This document shows, one piece after another, positions 10,194 to 49,648 of a stretch of DNA of 64,000 nt; positions within the stretch are counted from its first letter, which is position 1, and every line of letters begins with the position of its first letter. The notes below the pieces were generated by a model. The model saw only the letters and a program-made list of their open reading frames with translations, was not told the origin of the DNA and searched no databases. Made by a program: the position numbers and the translations under genes. This stretch comes from an uncultured Pseudomonadota bacterium (GTDB lineage Bacteria; Pseudomonadota; Alphaproteobacteria; Rs-D84): NCBI GenBank assembly GCA_902774285.1, contig CACYHO010000001.1, forward strand, positions 328,077 to 392,076. Reading direction: 5' to 3'.

Positions 10194-10964
10194 TTATTGG
10201 TTTGATTCCATACTGTCGTCAAAGACACAATAAGTGTTATTTCCAAAACTGACTTTTAATTTTCGTTCGGTTTGAATATTCATTGGTGTATCAGATAAAC
10301 TCATATTCGCAGAATAAATATTTCCATTAACCCTGGTGTATAAACGATGTTCGGTTGGGTGCGCTGGCGATTGATGCATATACATAACATAATCGCCCAA
10401 ATGTAATTTACGACCACATTGCGATTCCAACCACATACCAGCCGGGGCAAATGGGTGATTCTCTGGACAAGATATGATTCCTTGTGGGGTTGTTTCATTA
10501 AATGTTAAATTTCCACCGGGGCAATAGTTATTTTGTGGACATTGGGTACAAGCATCAACATTCGCCGGTAAATAATACCCCAGTGAACAATTATGAATAT
10601 TTGGTGTAAATGTAGCAGTAATATTGGCTATATTGTTATAAGCACGTAAAAAATTTTCTTTACAACCATTCCTTATATTTTCTGTAACTTGGGTTTTGAA
10701 TTTGTTCCCTTGGTCATACTCTTCATTAAAATAAAAAGTTCCACCATTACAATCATAAACATCTGGACACACAACACAACCATCATTATTGGCTGGCACA
10801 TAATATCCAGAACCACATTGATATTGATTTGGTGTAAAGTTAGCCCATAAGTAAGTATCAGTATTCAAACCAGACGAACAACCATTTGGAATGTTTGACA
10901 TAATCAAATCGTCTGCAAATGCAGATATGGGCATTATTAAAAATAATAACCATTTGTATTTCAT
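10194..10964 (-). CDS. Exported Cys-rich repeat protein, second gene of secreted module A
   Basis: A 256-residue protein with a signal peptide (ending AFA) and two imperfect copies of a Cys-rich unit: FTPN...C..GYY.PAN.D.C..CP....C.GG...FNE. The C-terminal domain contains CPENHPFAPAGMW, SQCGRKL and YMHQSPAHPT. The same order and nearly identical C-terminal motifs recur in the protein encoded at 48449-49261. The paired cysteines suggest disulfide-stabilised repeats on a cell-surface or secreted protein. The start ATG overlaps the stop of the upstream gene (TAATG), so the two are translationally coupled. Its function is unknown; nothing catalytic is visible. Confidence 0.75.
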   Translation of the reverse strand: MKYKWLLFLIMPISAFADDLIMSNIPNGCSSGLNTDTYLWANFTPNQYQCGSGYYVPANNDGCVVCPDVYDCNGGTFYFNEEYDQGNKFKTQVTENIRNGCKENFLRAYNNIANITATFTPNIHNCSLGYYLPANVDACTQCPQNNYCPGGNLTFNETTPQGIISCPENHPFAPAGMWLESQCGRKLHLGDYVMYMHQSPAHPTEHRLYTRVNGNIYSANMSLSDTPMNIQTERKLKVSFGNNTYCVFDDSMESNQ

Positions 10965-11722
10965 TATTGTAAAACTGAACCTGCTATAAATTGCCCTGTG
11001 CCTTGGTTATAGAAAAATTGTTCTGTCACTTTGTCGTACATACATGGAGTGCCATCTTTATCAAGAACAGGGATAAAATCACGAACAAGGGTATTGTTGT
11101 CGTAGATTTTACAGTAATAAATACGACAGAAGCCAATATTAACGTTTGTTGGCCTTTTGTCCGCAAACAAACACATATTATAAGGAGAAATAAAATCATT
11201 ATTATTTGATGATAACACAAAATATGTATCGTTATTGTTGTACGCGTATTGAACGTTACGGCCATACCAATTGACAGTAAAAGGATTTGCTCCTGGTAAT
11301 GATTGTGCTGTGACACCAGAATAAATAAACTGCAAAGTACCACCCCAAATATATAATTCAAACGATTTTGAATGGGCACTTTCTCCGGAACCAAAAAAAA
11401 TATTTTCTGCTGATAAATCGTTTTTTGTGTTTTGTATTTTTATTTCTATCCCTGTAAGATTATTTGGAATATATCCTGTATCAATATACTGGGTACCTGT
11501 AGATTCCAAATATTCAATTGGTCTATAACTAGCAAGTTTCCAGCCTGTAAAAGTATAACCGTATTTTGTTGGTGGGGTGGATGGTAAAATTAAATCACTG
11601 TTAATTTCACATGTTGAATCTTGGTATGTTGTTCCGTCATAATTTAACCAATGCAGGTTTATTGTATCTGCAAATGCAAAACCGATAAACAGTAATGATA
11701 ATAATACAATAAACCGTTTCAT
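10964..11722 (-). CDS. Exported protein with InlB-type repeat and LamG-like domain, first gene of secreted module A
   Basis: A 252-residue protein. I chose the ATG at 11722 because it has the site AGGGGG and opens directly into a signal peptide (MKRFIVLLSLLFIGFAFA); the frame extends further upstream but only into the RNA leader. After the signal comes a short Listeria-Bacteroides (InlB B-type) segment with PPTKYGYTFTGW. A concanavalin/LamG-like domain follows, opening IEYLESTGTQYIDTGY. The C-terminus reads MYDKVTEQFFYNQGTGQFIAG. A homologue lies at 47685-48449 with the same ends but a strongly divergent middle. It may bind a carbohydrate or surface ligand; this is inferred from the folds only. 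Confidence 0.75.
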   Translation of the reverse strand: MKRFIVLLSLLFIGFAFADTINLHWLNYDGTTYQDSTCEINSDLILPSTPPTKYGYTFTGWKLASYRPIEYLESTGTQYIDTGYIPNNLTGIEIKIQNTKNDLSAENIFFGSGESAHSKSFELYIWGGTLQFIYSGVTAQSLPGANPFTVNWYGRNVQYAYNNNDTYFVLSSNNNDFISPYNMCLFADKRPTNVNIGFCRIYYCKIYDNNTLVRDFIPVLDKDGTPCMYDKVTEQFFYNQGTGQFIAGSVLQ

Positions 11723-11743: not shown

Positions 11744-11948
11744 AAATAAAAAGACCGCCAAGAAAATGGGCGGTCGGGGAGTTAGCAATAACACATTAAA
11801 TGTTCCGTTCCCTTACGGTAAAACGGCTCCCCAACCGTAAGGTCAGGGATGATAACGGCGCAAAAAGCACCGACAACATCAGATTTACGATGCTTTCGCA
11901 CCGAATGTGTAGGCTTGCTACAGCCCCGAACCCAATCCCTTGGATTCA
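11744..11948 (-). promoter_or_regulatory. Structured RNA leader A, candidate cis-regulatory element
   Basis: About 200 nt upstream of secreted module A, homologous to the leader at 47410-47628. On the minus strand it folds into GAATCC/GGGTTC, GGCT/AGCC, CGGTGC-GAAA-GCATCG, CGGTGC/GCGCCG and a 9-bp CCTTACGGT/ACCGTAAGG helix whose loop holds GGGGAG. The matching CTCCCC lies at 11781-11776, directly beside a terminator hairpin. Every helix is kept in copy B despite sequence change. It does not match any riboswitch class I can recall. It could instead be an independent small RNA. Confidence 0.65.
11748..11775 (-). terminator. Terminator-like hairpin at the end of leader A
   Basis: The stem GACCGCC/GGCGGTC has a 9-base loop and five T residues on the minus strand. 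It ends about 25 bases before the start codon of module A's first gene, so it would stop transcription before the gene unless it is overridden. Confidence 0.75.
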
Positions 11949-19477: not shown

Positions 19478-21853
19478 ATGACAAATATGTTGCAAAAGAT
19501 ATTTGGACAAATAGAAACCAAGGAACAGTTTGATGCTTTGCGTATTTCTATTGCGTCCCCAGAAGAAATTCTGTCTTGGTCGCATGGTGAAGTTAAAAAG
19601 CCAGAAACAATCAACTATCATTCCTTGAAACCAGAAGCCGAAGGTTTGTTCTGCCAACAAATTTTTGGACCTGTTAAAGATTACGAATGCGCATGCGGAA
19701 AATACAAACGTATTAAATTCCGTGGTGTTGTTTGTGAACGTTGTGGTGTGGAAGTTGGTTCATCAGCAGTTCGTCGTGAACGTATGGGACACATTAAATT
19801 GGCAATTCCTGTTGCACACACTTGGTTCTTACGCGAAGGCAAAATTGCTACATTGTTGAACAATTTGCCACAAAAGAAATTGGAACAAGTTATTTCTTAT
19901 GATGCTTATATTGTTACAGAACCAGGTTTAACCAGTTTGAAACAATATGATGTTATCAGTGAAGATGAATACCAAGCAGCCGTTGAAGAATTCGGTGAAG
20001 ATTCTTTCCATGTTGGCATTGGTGCCGAAGGTATTCGTTCAATTATCGCTAATTTGGATATGGGTGATGAAAGAACACGTTTGCGTGCTGAATTGGCAGA
20101 AACAAAATCAGAAGCAAAACGTAAATCTATCATCAAACAATTGAAATTGGTTGAATCATTTTTGGATTCTAAAACAGAACCAGCATGGATGTTACCGGAT
20201 ATTATCCCAGTAATTCCACCAGATATGCGTCCATTGGTTACTTTAGATGCGGGCCATGTTGCAACATCTGATTTGAACGATTTGTATCGTCGTGTAATTA
20301 TTCGTAACAATCGTTTGAAAAGATTTATTGAAATGCACGCACCTGAAATCATCGTACGTAATGAAAAACGTATGTTACAGGAAGCGGTTGATTCATTGTT
20401 CGATAACGGACACAAAGCACGTCCAATGGTTTCACAAAACCGTCGTCCTTTGAAATCTTTGTCTGATTCATTGCGTGGGAAACAAGGTCGTTTCCGTATG
20501 AACATGTTGGGTAAACGTGTAGATTATTCTGGACGTAGTGTTATTACACCTGGACCAACACTTCGTATGCATCAGGTTGGTTTGCCAAAAACAATGGCAT
20601 TGGAATTGTTCAAACCATTTGTGTTTGCTAAATTGTTAGCTGGCGATTATGCTAATACATTAAAGACAGCACGTAAGATGGTTGAAAACGGTGAAGATAT
20701 TGTATGGGAAATTTTGGAAAAAGTTATTTACCAACATCCTGTATTGTTAAACCGTGCGCCATCATTGCATAGATTGTCTTTGATTGCGTTCGAACCAGTT
20801 TTGATTGAAGGTAAAGCAATCCGTTTGCACCCATTGGTATGTAAAGGATTCAATGCGGACTTTGACGGTGACCAGATGTCTGTGCACGTTCCAATTTCAT
20901 TAGAAGCACAATTGGAAGCACGTACATTGATGTTATCTACAAATAACGTATTGTCACCTGCTAATGGTGAACCTATGACAGTTCCATCTCAGGACATGGT
21001 GTTGGGTGTTTACTATATCTCTTTGATGAATGGTGAACACGACGAAAAGAAATCACCAAGATTTTCTGGTATGGACGAAGTTCAATTGGCTTTGGAAAAC
21101 AAAACAATCACATTACATACACCAATTTATGCACGTATCAATGGTAAGACATATGCCACAACAGCCGGTCGTATGATTTTGGGACAATTATTACCAGAAG
21201 GAATGCCTTTTGATTCTGTGAATAAAGTGATGCCAGTGAAAGAAATCAAAAAATTATTAGCAAAAACTTATGAAGTTTGTGGTGATAAGGCAATGATTTT
21301 ATTGGCTGACGCTTTGAAAGATACAGGTTTCGAACAAGCTGTACGCAGTGGTATTTCAATCGGATTTGATGATATCGTTGTTCCTGCTGAAAAAGAAGCA
21401 ATGATTGCGAAATCTGAAAAAGCAGCAGCAGAAATCGAAGAACAATATCAAAACGGTTTGTTATCCAGTGGTGAACGTCACAATAAATTGATCGACTTGT
21501 GGCAACACACAACTGACGAATTGGGTGATAAAGCATACGCTTCTTTGGGTAATACCGAAGGTGACAAATGGAATTCTATCCATATGATGGCTTTGTCTGG
21601 TGCTCGTGGATCCAAAGGTCAGATTCAACAGTTGGCAGGTATGCGTGGTATGATGCAGAAACCAGACGGTTCTATTATTGAAGTTCCTATTATTTCGAAC
21701 TTTAAAGAAGGTTTGACCATGTCTGAATACTTTACATCAACCCACGGTGCACGTAAAGGTATGTCGGATACATTAACACTGTCATTACAGAACACGATTG
21801 CGGAACACATGAATTTATTACAGCTAAACCTGTATATCAAGGTTCTACATTGA
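19478..21853 (+). CDS. rpoC: RNA polymerase subunit beta', N-terminal part of a frameshifted gene
   Basis: N-terminal 780 or so residues of beta'. The zinc-binding set [19 protein letters not shown], the clamp and rudder region and the catalytic magnesium loop NADFDGDQM are all intact. The normal sequence ends at GARKGMSDT near 21770. The next expected block (ALKTANSGYLTRRLVDVAQ, the bridge helix) is absent and the frame shifts, giving a short nonsense tail to the stop at 21853. About 55 bases are missing relative to the conserved protein. AAGGAG precedes the ATG. Beta' without its bridge helix could not work, so the break is probably an assembly fault. Confidence 0.93.
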
Positions 21854-23529
21854 CTGTTGCGCTGGGTGACGTTGTTTTAGGCCGTACAGCAGCACACGAT
21901 GTTATCCATCCTTTGACCAAAGAAGTCATTGTAAAGGCTGGCGATTTGATTACAAAAGCAGCAGCACGTCAAATCAATGAATCTGGTTTGCCAAGTGTTG
22001 ATGTTCGCAGCGTTTTGACATGTCAAAGTGACGGTTTGTGTGCAAAATGTTATGGTATGGATTTGTCCAGAAATGCATTAGTACATGTTGGTGAACCAGT
22101 AGGTTTGATTGCTGGACAATCAATTGGTGAACCTGGAACCCAGTTAACCTTGCGTACCTTCCACATTGGTGGTATTGCAGAAGGTGGTTCAGAATCTCAC
22201 TTTATCGAAATGCCGGTTGCTGGAAAAATCAAATTGGATAATGTGAATACAATTACTAATTCTGCTGACCGTGTTGTAGTGTTGTCTCGTACTGGTAAAA
22301 TAGGTGTCGTCGATGATGAAGGCAAAGAATTGTTCACAGTTGCATTGCCTTATGCATCTATGTTATTGGTAAATGATGGCGACAAAGTTGAAAAAGGTCA
22401 AAAAGTTGCAGAATGGGATCCATATTCCAATACAATTATTGCTGAAAAAGACGGTATCGTATCGTTCAACGATTTGATTGAAAACGTTTCTTATCAAGAA
22501 GAAGTCGATTCAATGACAGGTATCGTTTCTCGCAAGGTTATCAATTGGAAAACAAATACCAAAAAGGCATTAAGCCCATCTATAAGATTGGTTGATGACA
22601 AAGGTAATATGATTTCATTGGGTGGCAAAAAAGTCGCAGAATATCTGTTGCCAACATATTCGACTTTGAATGTGTCAAATGGTGACAAGATACACGCTGG
22701 TGATATTTTGGCACGTATCCCTGTTCAATCAAAGAAGACAGGCGATATTACCGGTGGATTGCCACGTGTTGAAGAATTGTTGGAAATCCGTCGTCCTGCA
22801 AACCCAGCATTGTTGGCCGAAATTGATGGGACAGTCGAATTAGAAGATGCAAAATCAAAGATTATAATTCGTATTGAACCAGCAGATGGCACAGCACCTG
22901 TTGAATACGCAGTACCAAAGGGAACTAATTTATTGGTTCGCAGCGGTGATACTGTTCATAAAGCTGATAAATTGGTCGATGGTGACCCAGTTCCACAAGA
23001 TATTTTGCGCATCTTGGGTCAAAAAGCATTGGCACAATTTATGGTTGAACAAGTTCAGCAAGTTTACCGTTTACAGGGTGTGTCCATCAATGACAAACAT
23101 ATTGAAATTTTGATACGTGAAATGACTCGTCGTGTAGAAATCAGCAATCCTGGTGATACTGCATTCTTAAGCGGACAAGTTATTGACCGTGTTGATTTCG
23201 AAGAAGAAAATGCACGTGTTGCAAAAGACGGTGGTCGTGTCGCCGAAGCTTCTCAAGTTTTGGTTGGTTTGACCCGCGCTTCTTTGACTTCTCGTTCATT
23301 TATATCCAATGCATCGTTCCAACAAACAACGAAAGTATTGGTTGACGCGGCAATCAGTGGTTCTACCGATAAATTGGTTGGTGTGAACGAAAACTTGATT
23401 GTTGGTCGTTTGATACCAATTGGAACAGGTGCTTATGTTCGTCGTGTTCGTGAAATCGCGAAAGAAGAAGAAAAGGCTGAAAAATTGGCCCGTGAAGGTG
23501 GCGAACAACAACAATTGTTGGATATTTAA
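21850..23529 (+). CDS. rpoC: RNA polymerase subunit beta', C-terminal part of the frameshifted gene
   Basis: The C-terminal part of beta' continues in another frame. Its frame is open from about 21775, where it reads [20 protein letters not shown], so the TTG at 21850 is not a real start. The second zinc site ([12 protein letters not shown]), the conserved [20 protein letters not shown] trigger-loop region and the C-terminal clamp and jaw are all present. It ends the operon at 23529 and is followed by a hairpin. Joined to the N-terminal part with about 19 missing codons restored, total length would be about 1390 residues, as expected. Confidence 0.93.
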
Positions 23530-30930: not shown

Positions 30931-30955
30931 AAAAAACGGGCAATGCCCGTTTTTT
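30931..30955. terminator. Bidirectional terminator
   Basis: AAAAAACGGGC-AAT-GCCCGTTTTTT between convergent genes. The same hairpin occurs again at 31862-31887. Confidence 0.92.
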
Positions 30956-31589
30956 AAAATGTATATCTTAATCCTATGCGATTTAATAATATGTGTGATA
31001 ATGCTTCTGTATCTGTCTTTAAAAATTTCATGCTGATACTTAATCCAAAACCGCGGGCATCTTCCGCAAGATATTCTATCTTTGCACCATAAAAATTGCC
31101 AGTATCTTTTATGTCCGTGTTTATAAATTCGGGCGTATATGTTGATCTGATTGTTCCTGCATCCAAACCAAGTACTATAAACACTTGCTGTCCATCTTGT
31201 TCATCTATTCTGATATAATTATCAAATTCTGCGCCAAATAAATTATGTGAAGTGTCTATATTAAATTTTGTGCTGCCATACGCAGAGGCCACATCTAATT
31301 TTGCATCCCCTGTCACATGATTATAAAACATTTGGATACCAGGATGATAAATATGAGAATCATCAAGAAATCGTATTCCAAAATTTCCACCATACGTGAA
31401 ATTCATACCATCAGAAGATAATGTACTGTATGGGACACCGTATTTTTCCATGACACCATTATTTTGTGCATTAACAGTTGCGCCCATTTCAGCAGTTATA
31501 AACGGGTGTATTTTATTAAAAATTTGTGATGCAAAAGACTGTTGTGAACATATTGCGCAACACATGCCGATAAAAAATAGTTTTTTCAT
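30954..31589 (-). CDS. Outer-membrane beta-barrel protein (opacity-type)
   Basis: A 211-residue protein with a signal peptide (to about residue 20, ending FAS), alternating hydrophobic strands and the C-terminal motif GLRYTF, with the terminal Phe needed for BAM-mediated insertion. Size and strand count suggest an 8-stranded barrel such as OmpW or opacity proteins. AAAGGATAA precedes the ATG. Its most notable feature is the structured leader at 31615-31770, which suggests that expression responds to some signal. Confidence 0.78.
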   Translation of the reverse strand: MKKLFFIGMCCAICSQQSFASQIFNKIHPFITAEMGATVNAQNNGVMEKYGVPYSTLSSDGMNFTYGGNFGIRFLDDSHIYHPGIQMFYNHVTGDAKLDVASAYGSTKFNIDTSHNLFGAEFDNYIRIDEQDGQQVFIVLGLDAGTIRSTYTPEFINTDIKDTGNFYGAKIEYLAEDARGFGLSISMKFLKTDTEALSHILLNRIGLRYTF

Positions 31590-31614: not shown

Positions 31615-31770
31615 AACCGCCACAAAAAAGGCGGTTGGAGGTTAAGAACTATAATTACTAGAAAATAGCGTGCCTATTTTATCAAAAGATATTATTCGGC
31701 AACCCTCCAACCATATAAACGATTGGAGGTGTTTTTTGTCCCCACGGACACTAGTAATTTAGGGTTCTTA
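31615..31770 (-). promoter_or_regulatory. Structured leader C, switch-like (riboswitch or attenuator candidate)
   Basis: On the minus strand a 16-bp closing helix (TAAGAAC...AATTACTAG with CTAGTAATT...GTTCTTA) encloses three hairpins: TGTCC/GGACA, CCTCCAATC/GGTTGGAGG and AAAATAG/CTATTTT. A terminator-like stem AACCGCC/GGCGGTT (31636-31615) follows. CCTCCAACC at 31641-31633, overlapping that stem's 5' arm, is perfectly complementary to GGTTGGAGG of the middle hairpin, so two folds exclude each other. It lies about 25 bases upstream of the outer-membrane protein start. The ligand is unknown. Confidence 0.65.
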
Positions 31771-31861
31771 CGCCCAACACAACTTATTGTGCTGATTACA
31801 GAGTAAAATACTTGTATTATAAAATCAAGAATTTATTGCTGATATTAAATATATTTTGGTT

Positions 31862-47299: not shown

Positions 47300-47409
47300 A
47301 ATTCAAATTTATAATTCCTGACAGGAATATATACAAATGGTTTTGGTGGGGATTTTTTATTAAAGTTTTTTCTGTTTACATTTGATAACCCGTATTTTAT
47401 AATAATTTT

Positions 47410-47628
47410 TGAATCCAAGGGATTGGATTCAGGGCTGTCATAAGCCAACTTTGTCCGGTGCGAAAGCATCGTTATCTGATGTTATCGGTGTTTTTTTGCA
47501 CCGTTATCATCCCTGATTGTTATGGTCGGGGAGCCGTTGGTTATAAAATACGAGCAATCGAAAGACCGCGGAATCAATGACAAAGTGATTTATGAACTCC
47601 CTGACCGCCCTTTGAGACGGTCTTTTTT
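47410..47628 (+). promoter_or_regulatory. Structured RNA leader B, candidate cis-regulatory element
   Basis: Homologue of leader A (11744-11948, minus strand). Helices: GAATCC/GGATTC (47411-47430), GGCT/AGCC (47433-47446), CGGTGC-GAAA-GCATCG (47456-47471), GATG...CATC enclosing CGGTGT/GCACCG (47478-47511), and TTATGG/TTATAA (47520-47546), whose loop holds GGGGAG. CTCCCT (47597-47602) can pair with that loop. A terminator-like hairpin GACCG/CGGTC with six T residues ends it at 47628. Compensatory differences from A support the fold. Function unknown. Confidence 0.65.
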
Positions 47629-47657
47629 GTCGCGGCTTTGCGACAGCAAAGACGGAT
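47628..47657. repeat. 30-base repeat, copy 1 (second at 49619-49648)
   Basis: A 30-base sequence, TGTCGCGGCTTTGCG followed by two variable bases and then AGCAAAGACGGAT, occurs again at 49619-49648 in the same orientation with 28 of 30 matches. It contains CTTTGC/GCAAAG and can form a hairpin. The two copies bracket secreted module B and the GIY-YIG gene. Leader A has no counterpart at this position. Confidence 0.7.
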
Positions 47658-47684: not shown

Positions 47685-48449
47685 ATGAAACGGTTTTTAA
47701 TATTATTATCATTACTGTTATGTAATACGGTATGTGCAGAAACAATAAATATAAATTGGATGGTTGATGAACAACAATATGGCACCCCAACAACTTGTGA
47801 ATACAGTGGTGATGTAATATTACCAACCCCCCCAACAAAATATGGTTATACCTTCGCCGGCTGGGAACCAAGCACTTATATTTTCTTGGAGTATATTCAA
47901 AATTCAGGGACTCAGAAAATAGATACAGGTGTAACAATAACAAATGGTAAGAGATTTGAGATTGATGTACAATTGAACAGCGATAGCCCAACCGAAAGTT
48001 CTATTATGGGTACAGGTGGTGGTTATGATACTAACTTTGTTTCAATACGCGCGGGAAATTATTTTAGTAATAATATATTTGGGTTCATAAAGAATCTAAA
48101 ATATTACACACCTGGAAATATAACCAAAGATGCACAGAGACACTTGTTTGTAATTGATTTGAATAATAATAAAGTAAGAATTGATCAATATGAGGCGATT
48201 ACAGACGGTACAACAAACAGTAGCCTAACTTGGTGGATTGGAAGTTATATGGGAAGTACTTCATCTGGATTTGATTGGATAGGTAAATATTATGGTATAA
48301 AGATATATGATAACGAAGAATTAATACATGACTTTATACCTGCAAAACGATTGTCTGATAATGCTGTTGGTATGTATGATTTTGTAAGTGGGACCTTCTT
48401 TGGTAATGCCGGAACCGGAACATTTATTGCGGGGCCAGTTGCTAACTAA
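47685..48449 (+). CDS. Exported protein with InlB-type repeat and LamG-like domain, first gene of secreted module B
   Basis: A 254-residue homologue of the 10964-11722 product. The start at 47685 has the site GGGGAG and opens a signal peptide (MKRFLILLSLLLCNTVCA). An InlB-type segment (PPTKYGYTFAGW) follows, then a LamG-like domain opening FLEYIQNSGTQKIDTG, and the shared C-terminal motif MYDFVSGTFFGNAGTGTFIAG. The central 150 residues diverge strongly between the copies while both ends stay alike. That would fit diversification of a binding face. Its stop overlaps the next start (TAATG). Confidence 0.75.
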   Translation: MKRFLILLSLLLCNTVCAETININWMVDEQQYGTPTTCEYSGDVILPTPPTKYGYTFAGWEPSTYIFLEYIQNSGTQKIDTGVTITNGKRFEIDVQLNSDSPTESSIMGTGGGYDTNFVSIRAGNYFSNNIFGFIKNLKYYTPGNITKDAQRHLFVIDLNNNKVRIDQYEAITDGTTNSSLTWWIGSYMGSTSSGFDWIGKYYGIKIYDNEELIHDFIPAKRLSDNAVGMYDFVSGTFFGNAGTGTFIAGPVAN

Positions 48450-49261
48450 TGAAAAAGATATTTGTATCTTTGTTGTTTATATTTGTTATGCAAAATGCAT
48501 TGGCGGTATTGTACACAAACGATATTTCAAATGGATGTATAAATTCTGTTATTCATCCTTATAATAATAATGCAGAAATGACGGCACGTTGGACACCGAA
48601 TACACATACATGTAATGTTAACGAATTTTTACCCGCAAATACAGATGCTTGCGTTGCGTGTCCAATGGGGCAAACATGCACCGGTGGAACATTTGATTTT
48701 AACGAAACAGAACCCCAAGGAATCACATACACCACACCAATATTGTATAATCAAAATAATTCTTGTGTTAATGAATTATTAAAACCAAGTGATAACACTT
48801 CGTATATGATGGCCAAATTTACACCAAATGTTCATAATTGTAATCCGGGATATTATTTACCGGCAAATATTGACGAGTGTAGGAAATGTTTGAACGACCA
48901 TTATTGTCCTGGTGGAACTTTGACATTTAACGAAACAACACCACAAGGAATAATAGATTGTCCAGAAAATCATCCTTTTGCTCCGGCTGGTATGTGGCAA
49001 CAATCACAATGTGGTCGAAAATTATATGTTGGCGAAGATATTTTATACATGCACCAATCACCAGCACATCCAACAGTCCATAGATTATATATTGGTCACC
49101 CTAATGGTATATATTCGGCAAATGCAGTCCAACGGGATATGAATTCAAATACTTTTCCGAAAATGTCAGAAGGTATGTCAAAAGGATTTCATGTAAAGAT
49201 AGATGGTGTTGAATATTTGGTATGTGATGATTCCATTCCAGAATGTAGAAACGGCCAATAA
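48449..49261 (+). CDS. Exported Cys-rich repeat protein, second gene of secreted module B
   Basis: A 270-residue homologue of the 10194-10964 product, with a signal peptide ending in ALA and two Cys-rich units (FTPNVHNCNPGYYLPAN and CPMGQTCTGG-type). The C-terminal domain has the same CPENHPFAPAGMW, SQCGRKL and YMHQSPAHPT blocks, which are the best conserved part between copies. The overlapping start makes it translationally coupled to the LamG-like gene. The pair probably acts together at the cell surface. Confidence 0.75.
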   Translation: MKKIFVSLLFIFVMQNALAVLYTNDISNGCINSVIHPYNNNAEMTARWTPNTHTCNVNEFLPANTDACVACPMGQTCTGGTFDFNETEPQGITYTTPILYNQNNSCVNELLKPSDNTSYMMAKFTPNVHNCNPGYYLPANIDECRKCLNDHYCPGGTLTFNETTPQGIIDCPENHPFAPAGMWQQSQCGRKLYVGEDILYMHQSPAHPTVHRLYIGHPNGIYSANAVQRDMNSNTFPKMSEGMSKGFHVKIDGVEYLVCDDSIPECRNGQ

Positions 49262-49295: not shown

Positions 49296-49535
49296 TTAAA
49301 AATGGTTTTTACAAAATTTACGTCCAGAATGTGTTTTTAAATATTTCTCAAATGCTATGGCTTTTTGTTCATTATCAAAAGCAATATAATTTTTTAATGC
49401 CCAAGGTATAAATTTTTTGGTATAAGGAGAATATCCGGAATTATGGTCTTGTAACCTTTTTTGTAAATCACATGTAAAGCCAATATAAAAGTTTTCAGGG
49501 AAAGATAGGGATTGTAATACGTATACATAAAACAT
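49296..49535 (-). CDS. GIY-YIG nuclease-like protein
   Basis: From the ATG at 49535 (AAGGACGGG upstream) it has 79 residues: MFYVYVLQS, the GIY strand, then NFYIGFTCDLQKRLQDHN with the YIG-like strand and the catalytic Arg, and further YTKKFIPWAL and EKAIAFEKYLK-like helices. Such small single-domain proteins (UPF0213/YhbQ) are putative endonucleases of unclear role. It is convergent to secreted module B. Confidence 0.8.
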   Translation of the reverse strand: MFYVYVLQSLSFPENFYIGFTCDLQKRLQDHNSGYSPYTKKFIPWALKNYIAFDNEQKAIAFEKYLKTHSGRKFCKNHF

Positions 49536-49618
49536 CTTGCCCGTCCTTTGCTTTGTTCGCACTTCGTGCGCCTACAGCCAAAGGCCGCGGCATTCCGTTT
49601 TGCACGCTTAAACCCGCC

Positions 49619-49648
49619 TGTCGCGGCTTTGCGCTAGCAAAGACGGAT
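49619..49648. repeat. 30-base repeat, copy 2, abutting tRNA-Thr
   Basis: 28/30 match to 47628-47657 in the same orientation. Its last base coincides with the 3' CCA end of the tRNA-Thr gene. Between the GIY-YIG start and here lie a CGCAC/GTGCG hairpin and G+C-richer non-coding sequence. Confidence 0.7.

Follow-up and report, generated by a model that had tools for sequence, protein, structure and literature searches.

A putative leader RNA ahead of a secreted gene pair

What connects two copies of one gene pair that lie in opposite orientation within the same stretch of bacterial DNA? The stretch analysed here (hereafter the window) spans 64,000 nucleotides (nt) of contig CACYHO010000001.1 (positions 328,077 to 392,076, assembly GCA_902774285.1) from an uncultured alphaproteobacterium of the order Rs-D84. 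The pair consists of two genes, A and B, whose products both begin with signal-peptide-like sequences in the two window copies. A preliminary description of the window had mentioned a leader shared by both copies. To judge from its sequence, this leader belongs to a conserved family of structured RNAs that is also predicted ahead of many unrelated genes, and most of the interest of the locus rests with this RNA, which had been overlooked as such. We propose that the A+B pairs are probably among the cargoes of a regulatory RNA of the C4/a1b1 type, which exists in many copies and would act as a terminator switch.

In all four copies of the pair found in the source genome, a stretch of 150-200 nt ahead of A contains a chain of predicted hairpins ending in an intrinsic terminator close to the ATG, and most A+B pairs of relatives have the same leader. 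Two subtypes were distinguished: both window copies and the third copy carry type I, and the fourth carries type II. They have a common topology, which runs from a 5' hairpin through hairpin A, strand b1, hairpin P3, strands s1 and s2, P6, P5, strand a' and strand s3 to the terminator. The aligned leaders of copies 1 and 2 showed a mean column identity of 82%. Covariance models were built for type II (R1, from 12 sequences) and type I (R2, from 10 sequences); their E-values are rough by construction, the a' and b' boundaries were set by the analyst and the genomes are metagenome assemblies. The features of the window are as follows, with ORF standing for open reading frame and PK for pseudoknot.

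47375-47403 (+): promoter-like hexamers of copy 2 (TTTACA, 17 nt, TATAAT), a consensus match only
47411-47609 (+): type I leader RNA of copy 2, C4/sRNA-Xcc1-like (R2 197.9 bits, E 2.3e-59; R2 training sequence)
47411-47430 (+): 5' hairpin P1 of copy 2 (helix 1, 97.7% of cells paired)
47432-47446 (+): hairpin A of copy 2, whose loop a1 (47438-47442) would pair with a' (47591-47595), forming PK-A
47448-47455 (+): strand b1 of copy 2, which would pair with the P5 loop b' (47579-47586), forming PK-B
47456-47471 (+): hairpin P3 of copy 2 (CGGTGC GAAA GCATCG)
47511-47517 (+): strand s1 of copy 2, predicted to pair with s2 as the alternative to the antiterminator
47524-47533 (+): strand s2 of copy 2, 5' side of the C4-like core, beginning with GGT
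47572-47590 (+): hairpin P5 of copy 2 with loop b'
47597-47606 (+): strand s3 of copy 2, complementary to s2 (antiterminator) and start of the terminator
47524-47614 (+): match of copy 2 to RF02221 (sRNA-Xcc1) below the cut-off (39.6 bits, cut-off 53)
47603-47628 (+): intrinsic terminator of copy 2, predicted from the sequence (GACCG..CGGTC TTTTTT)
47685-48449 (+): gene A, copy 2 (signal peptide, Listeria-Bacteroides-repeat-like part, LamG-like variable middle, conserved end)
48449-49261 (+): gene B, copy 2 (signal peptide, Cys-rich YLPAN repeats, conserved C-terminal domain)
11769-11947 (-): type I leader RNA of copy 1 (R2 183.6 bits, E 5.5e-55; R2 training sequence)
11912-11926 (-): hairpin A of copy 1, with a1 (11915-11920) facing a' (11783-11788)
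11904-11910 (-): strand b1 of copy 1, facing b' (11792-11797)
11841-11848, 11827-11836 and 11772-11781 (-): strands s1, s2 and s3 of copy 1
11748-11775 (-): intrinsic terminator of copy 1, likewise predicted
10964-11722 (-): gene A, copy 1
10194-10964 (-): gene B, copy 1
31630-31792 (-): third leader of the window, type II, before a different secreted protein (R1 66.9 bits, E 1.2e-15; R2 25.5 bits, E 2.1e-6, over 31630-31794; training sequence of neither)
30954-31589 (-): ORF of 211 amino acids with a signal-peptide-like start, downstream of the third leader (without a Pfam match at E<=0.001)

The type I model R2 thus also detected the type II leader of the window, which supports a common origin of both types. 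At its gathering thresholds, Rfam recognised only tRNAs in the window, and for the fourth copy, with its type II leader, there was no Rfam match to that leader at E<=2.

Covariation points to two pseudoknots

The comparison of copies revealed two predicted reciprocal pseudoknots, in which the strands vary among copies and their complementarity is kept. PK-B was part of neither search model. Among 104 distinct type II RNAs, its mean longest helix was 7.73 when both strands were taken from the same RNA and 4.51 when they came from different ones, and none of 2000 reassignments exceeded 4.96. The 39 type I RNAs behaved similarly (8.08 within against 4.27 between; 0/2000 shuffles, maximum 5.03). 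P6 and hairpin A, which were unmodelled as well, also lay above all shuffles. In the type I alignment, 95.9% of cells were paired compared to 85.1% after shuffling, 24 pairs were changed on both sides compared to 10.8, and the pair score was 0.311 compared to 0.122 for shuffled and at most 0.058 for slid alignments. The doubly changed pairs included 7/7 of PK-B, whose columns represented the best of three registers, and 5/5 of PK-A. Altogether, these comparisons demonstrate, at the level of sequence, an RNA of about 150-200 nt between a promoter-like site and a gene, with the predicted fold and complementarities described above.

One type I leader (L294:1501-1696) departed from this pattern. 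Both of its pseudoknots were broken, its 5' and 3' halves were mismatched and the 3' half was that of another leader (L293). It looks like a chimera, produced by recombination or by chimeric assembly, and it was kept in the type I counts.

The terminator competes with a predicted antiterminator

Strand s2 has two complementary partners, s1 and s3, and s3 in turn supplies the 5' arm of the terminator with its 3' part. We infer attenuation because the s2:s3 helix and the terminator helix are mutually exclusive. Both sides of the s2:s3 helix changed together in the 104 type II rows: the majority combination, GGTTGGAGG with CCTCCAACC, gave way to GGTTGGAGT with AACTCCAACC in seven rows, to GTCAGGAGG with ACCTCCTGAC in four and to GGCAGGAGA with ATCTCCTGCC in one. 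In two genomes that were searched without the strand pattern, 24 of 25 RNAs had an s2:s3 helix of 9-10 base pairs (bp). Strand s2 started with GGT in 98/104 type II RNAs, in line with the GGW expected for RNase P processing of C4 at the base of the closing stem. The terminator helix reached at least 5 of 7 pairs in 99/104, with its own pairing above all 2000 shuffles, and was followed by at least 4 T within 8 nt in 100/104.

Genes behind the leaders

An ATG-initiated ORF with a Shine-Dalgarno-like site began 28-62 nt past the RNA in 79/103 type II and 30/39 type I cases. The same test on the opposite side of the RNA succeeded in 1/98 and 0/39 cases, and at random places in 86/2060 and 22/780, respectively. 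By a liberal heuristic, 73/104 type II cargo proteins were secreted-like compared to 22/58 window genes. About 22 of the 31 remaining type II cargos looked by eye like small helix-turn-helix (HTH) proteins, and 8/9 small ORFs tested matched a Pfam HTH family at E<=0.01, some of them under Pfam's own cut-offs. For type I, 24/39 cargos were secreted-like; 8 of the 38 loci that were searched had been picked via proteins A or B. At two loci (L205 and L210), leaders preceded small proteins that resemble VirB2/TrbC pilins by eye; that of L205 was without a Pfam match.

Distribution of the leader RNA

R1 matched in 122/132 genomes of the genus and 170/183 of the family, covering 13/13 genera sampled. 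In an order-wide draw it matched in 98/114 genomes, of which those outside the family accounted for 5/18, weakly. R2 matched in 86/96 genus genomes. The draws for R1 and R2 overlap, and counts per genome are lower bounds set by the number of candidates scored: a closed one-contig genome (G080) held at least 24 type II (150 candidates scored) and at least 14 type I RNAs (26 scored). A pattern scan of 84,980 species returned at least 118 stretches, and the 80 loci listed carry the titles Alphaproteobacteria, proteobacterium, Proteobacteria, Pseudomonadota, Rickettsiales, Candidatus Enterousia or bacterium. Among them was OX097180.1 (Ca. Enterousia intestinigallinarum), with a match equal in score and length to one in G080. 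We infer that the genus studied is Enterousia, which PMC12306168 assigns to the order Rs-D84, describing its genomes as reduced and its life as probably dependent on partners.

In viral contigs the strand pattern occurred in two stretches only, both with a 99.6-bit RNA. Because this RNA precedes a signal-peptide-like ORF in L348, the stretch that was read further, it does not demonstrate a phage origin of the copies described here. We found no paper that links sRNA-Xcc1 with C4/a1b1 or reports such RNAs in Enterousia or Rs-D84; PMC8040213, which deals with thousands of candidate RNAs of the human microbiome, could hold them in its supplements, which lie beyond the part of that source available.

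Kinship with sRNA-Xcc1 and phage C4

The leaders of copies 2 and 1 scored 39.6 and 24.3 bits, respectively, with the Rfam model of sRNA-Xcc1 (RF02221), without reaching its gathering cut-off of 53. The match on copy 2 spans s2 to s3, that is, the 3' half of the leader. A larger permissive Rfam scan of four loci (L001-L004) was without an RF02221 match, though smaller stretches gave one, and for this reason the match was not trusted by itself. In a class-wide draw, RF02221-like RNAs were present in 22/142 Alphaproteobacteria at E<=0.01, three of them above the cut-off, and in 0/14 control genomes. One of these genomes, a 1.4-Mb alphaproteobacterium of another family (G293), held 13 such RNAs at E<=0.01, perhaps as an independent expansion.

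The regions upstream of RF02221 matches, beyond the limits of the Rfam model, contained hairpin A and both partner strands, as seen in the loci read (17 of 20, the other three being cut by contig ends). For 37 matches, made up of these 17 loci and 20 further ones that were fetched, the PK-A region paired with the 125 nt upstream at 7.41 within compared to 4.98 between loci, and the PK-B region at 7.43 compared to 5.18 (0/2000 shuffles in both cases). At least 6 bp were reached in each pseudoknot test by 33/37. R1, which was trained on the present genus alone, recovered 10/44 RF02221-type loci at E<=1; the E-value was 1.4e-4 or lower for five of these and 7.9e-11 for the best. In a plasmid collection, six records matched the RF02221 consensus, and the five that were read scored 68.8-72.6 bits; an ORF followed 31-45 nt downstream in four of these five, and 3/4 proteins tested behind the plasmid RNAs contained Bro-N, pRha or ORF6N domains.

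In these 37 and five loci taken together (42 RF02221-type loci), the a' and b' strands also had copy-specific matches in the region before the start codon (5.36 compared to 4.20 and 5.50 compared to 4.56; 0/2000 each). Matches of the a and b strands at this place correspond to the a2/b2 arrangement of phage C4, as described in PMC5320573.

The gene pair and the variable centre of protein A

The preliminary description had recognised a two-gene secreted unit at 10194-11722 and, in opposite orientation, at 47685-49261. Leaders, gene order, signal peptides and motifs all bore this out: A ends with the motif FIAG[SP]V in both window copies, B contains CPENHPFAPAGMW and YMHQSPAHPT in both, and a TAATG overlap joins A to B. 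Inverted repeats between the copies measured 286 nt (77%), 49 nt (88%) and 40 nt (85%). The likeness of the copies is not due to chance, because their longest exact inverted match is 19 nt, compared to 15 nt between copy 2 and the remaining window, and B of copy 1 matched B of copy 2 at E=1.1e-74.

The module is indeed present twice in the window, but the source genome (an assembly of 855 kb in 4 contigs, 77% complete) holds four pairs, near 130.9k, 338.3k, 375.5k and 448.8k of contig C1, and relatives contain more. Likewise, the TAATG coupling applies to both window copies, but another pair of the same genome (L019) has a gap of 146 nt and no TAATG. A and B were adjacent in 22/22 parsed pairs, which had been selected for having both genes found. 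They overlapped or lay within 4 nt in 19/22, and the other gaps were 61, 61 and 146 nt.

The contrast between conserved flanks and a variable centre of A also held. Mean column identity across the four own copies was 0.65 in the signal peptide, 0.71 in the repeat-like part, 0.62 in the part containing EYLESTGTQ, 0.17 in the middle and 0.61 at the end. The middle of A diverges faster than its ends: in the six own pairs, the middle had a nonsynonymous divergence of 0.96-1.53, compared to 0.08-0.39 for the N-terminal flank and 0.14-0.54 for the end. Synonymous divergence was lower in the N-terminal flank than in the middle in 6/6 pairs; it was high or mostly saturated, and no ratio of nonsynonymous to synonymous divergence is claimed. 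The Listeria-Bacteroides repeat (PF09479) in A stayed below the Pfam gathering score of 27 (23.9 and 24.4 bits).

The structural model of A was an all-beta sandwich with weak pentraxin, galectin and LamG-like matches, the best one in the PDB being a pentraxin (E 4.4e-4, template modelling score 0.36-0.44, at a predicted local distance difference test score, pLDDT, of only 57). Ligand binding by A would be plausible from this model. Assigning a function to A or B from predicted folds was dropped as too weak (pLDDT 57 for A and 48, unusable, for B).

A profile of B found relatives in 131/141 genus genomes (E<=0.001), often as the C-terminal domain alone inside very large proteins. In G000, this domain recurs in giant open frames of 4110 and 3085 codons (C2:11204-11584 and C3:7556-8026), and it may be a shared domain for surface attachment or secretion. 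By eye, segments of B are shared in a mosaic fashion across the four own copies. At L075 and L088, variants of B keep the N-terminal half and have the end replaced by a repeat-like domain of the A type; these are domain exchanges between the partners A and B. At L056, a single open frame of 579 codons fuses A and B, which supports a possible joint action of both proteins.

Inversion of the 36 kb between the copies by recombination, an idea of the preliminary description, is unlikely because the longest exact inverted match is 19 nt, and an inversion hot spot was rejected on the same ground. Both rpoB and rpoC do lie in the interval, as had been stated, but the rpoC frame is broken in the assembly. 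It is split into two ORFs (window 19478-23529) by a frame shift near 21770, and about 20 residues that we take, from other RpoC proteins, to belong after GARKGMSDT are missing. In an essential gene, the break most likely reflects an error of the assembly.

Smaller features were also seen around copy 2. A palindrome-like element of 30 nt (93% identical) flanks it on both sides (47628-47657 and 49619-49648), similar elements resembling repetitive extragenic palindromes sit 3' of other leaders, and a short ORF directly behind copy 2 (49296-49562, minus strand) looks by eye like a GIY-YIG endonuclease.

Proposed mechanism and alternative explanations

In the switch proposed here, two states would be open to the nascent RNA. 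The knotted state would contain a1:a', b1:b' and s1:s2 and leave s3 free; the terminator could then form, transcription would stop and the gene would be off. In the C4-core state, s2:s3 would close a three-stem core and take up the terminator arm, so that RNA polymerase would read through and the gene would be on. If processing at the GGT where s2 begins freed core RNAs, these could in addition target other transcripts in trans, provided that the a1/b1 strands match. The trigger might be a protein, a ligand, a second core RNA or cleavage by RNase P. The lineage seems to have adopted an antisense-RNA circuit of phages or mobile elements and multiplied it, so that surface and other accessory genes would be controlled by many copies, each with its own specificity. 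A bolder extension takes the variable pseudoknot strands as addresses, so that the processed C4-like RNA of each leader would recognise its own a/b code alone and dozens of switches would be insulated from each other; sRNA-Xcc1 and its relatives would then likewise serve mobile genes as leaders wired in cis, and not act as free virulence small RNAs (sRNAs). We consider this extension doubtful. In the literature we found no description, outside phages, of a C4-type RNA network selecting surface or accessory genes.

Several observations weigh against the terminator switch. The s2:s3 pairing of type II is partly circular, since 79/104 rows came from a pattern demanding s1, s2 and s3, and two rows combine GGTTGGAGT with ACCTCCAACC as a counter-example to covariation. 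No match was obtained with R1 in 10/132 and with R2 in 10/96 genus genomes. The enrichment of secreted proteins among type II cargo is moderate, and type I cargo appears mixed by eye, with methylases, a helicase, glycosyltransferases, lipoproteins and a LysR-like protein. By eye, s1 is not evident in many RF02221-type loci. The Rfam model of C4 (RF01695) found nothing above its cut-off in any of the 7 genomes tried and nothing at gathering in the window, the one weak match (18.1 bits) lying outside the genus. Finally, an a2/b2 arrangement could hardly be traced in the genus: the P5 loop paired with the downstream region at 4.45 within compared to 4.41 between copies in type II (296/1000 shuffles reach this) and at 5.05 compared to 4.68 in type I (16/1000). 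The PK-A strand reached 4.22 compared to 3.99 in type II (0/1000) and was not significant in type I. The a2/b2 match is thus absent or faint in Enterousia, with the predicted terminator in its place.

The same RNA could be read as a free-standing sRNA gene that ends in a terminator and acts only in trans, as described for sRNA-Xcc1, the next gene being a mere neighbour or expressed by leak-through. Each copy does end in a terminator. sRNA-Xcc1 was observed as a band of about 100 nt, with mapped ends giving 88 nt (PMC2996969), and C4 is cut out of a longer transcript to about 77 nt (PMC5320573). However, spacing and orientation to the ORF are nearly constant (79/103 compared to 1/98 on the other side), a second promoter hardly fits between RNA and ORF, and the conserved competition of s2:s3 with the terminator arm would be needless for a plain sRNA, which makes a free sRNA rather unlikely. 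We hold a riboswitch or protein-sensing leader, with the knotted fold and its conserved P6 loop (GAATATATTGAATAA) as an aptamer for a metabolite or protein, to be less probable still. The fold is complex, the loop sequence is conserved across copies and the output devices differ by lineage (a terminator here, a mimic of the ribosome site in RF02221-type loci), all of which would suit an aptamer, but the cargo genes have no pathway in common, the pseudoknot strands are variable rather than conserved and phage C4 is described in PMC5320573 as base pairing with its target. The ligand-driven reading was placed behind the switch because the RF02221-type loci repeat their pseudoknot strands near the ribosome site.

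A very improbable explanation, which takes up the antigenic or ligand variation suggested in the preliminary description, sees the pairs as a family of cassettes: gene conversion would homogenise leader and flanks as recombination arms, and RNA structure would be secondary. It would account for the identity of 0.6-0.7 in the flanks of A compared to 0.17 in the middle, for the lower synonymous divergence of the N-terminal flank in the six own pairs and for the mosaic B segments noted by eye. Yet the same RNA precedes unrelated genes in all 13 family genera sampled, its strands covary, which is not a product of homogenisation, and the window copies have no exact match longer than 19 nt.

Significance and comparison with known systems

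If the terminator switch is true, a genome-reduced lineage of gut symbionts (Ca. Enterousia, order Rs-D84) would run much of its secreted repertoire by a multiplied RNA circuit of the phage type. According to PMC12306168, this lineage probably depends on partner cells. Moreover, sRNA-Xcc1, an Rfam family that has been considered a virulence regulator of plant pathogens, would make up only the 3' half of a longer leader RNA linked to the gene that follows, and its published target predictions would deserve rechecking. Every leader copy amounts to a compensatory-mutation experiment done by nature, which makes ordinary reporters a direct test of the switch model.

The arrangement resembles the C4 RNA of phages P1 and P7 (RF01695), which is reportedly also represented by the 'c4-a1b1' motif of Weinberg et al. 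2010, in several respects: a three-stem core of about 70-85 nt from s2 to s3, closed by a stem that starts with GG, complementary a and b strands upstream on the same transcript, and a position ahead of a gene. RF02221-type loci elsewhere share two more traits with C4: the genes that follow them are of the antirepressor type, and a/b recur at the ribosome site. Unlike C4, the leaders gave no match to the Rfam model, lack a clear a2/b2 and have an intrinsic terminator that would compete with the closing stem of the core; they exist in tens of chromosomal copies, and their cargo consists of secreted or surface, accessory and small HTH proteins rather than a phage antirepressor. sRNA-Xcc1, an sRNA of Xanthomonas integron cassettes that is said to be trans-acting in the title of Chen et al. 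2011, is similar in the sub-threshold match over s2-P6-P5-s3 and in the same two pseudoknots upstream of RF02221 matches elsewhere. In contrast, the Rfam family covers the 3' half alone, and the copies here scored 24-40 bits against a cut-off of 53. In Xanthomonas integrons, sRNA-Xcc1 lies upstream of symE in the same orientation, according to PMC12444791. The Group 1 C4-like sRNAs of Acinetobacter baumannii provide another bacterial genome with many C4-derived RNAs; PMC5320573 describes those as processed sRNAs with undefined targets, whereas here leader and terminator appear to be wired to their own gene.

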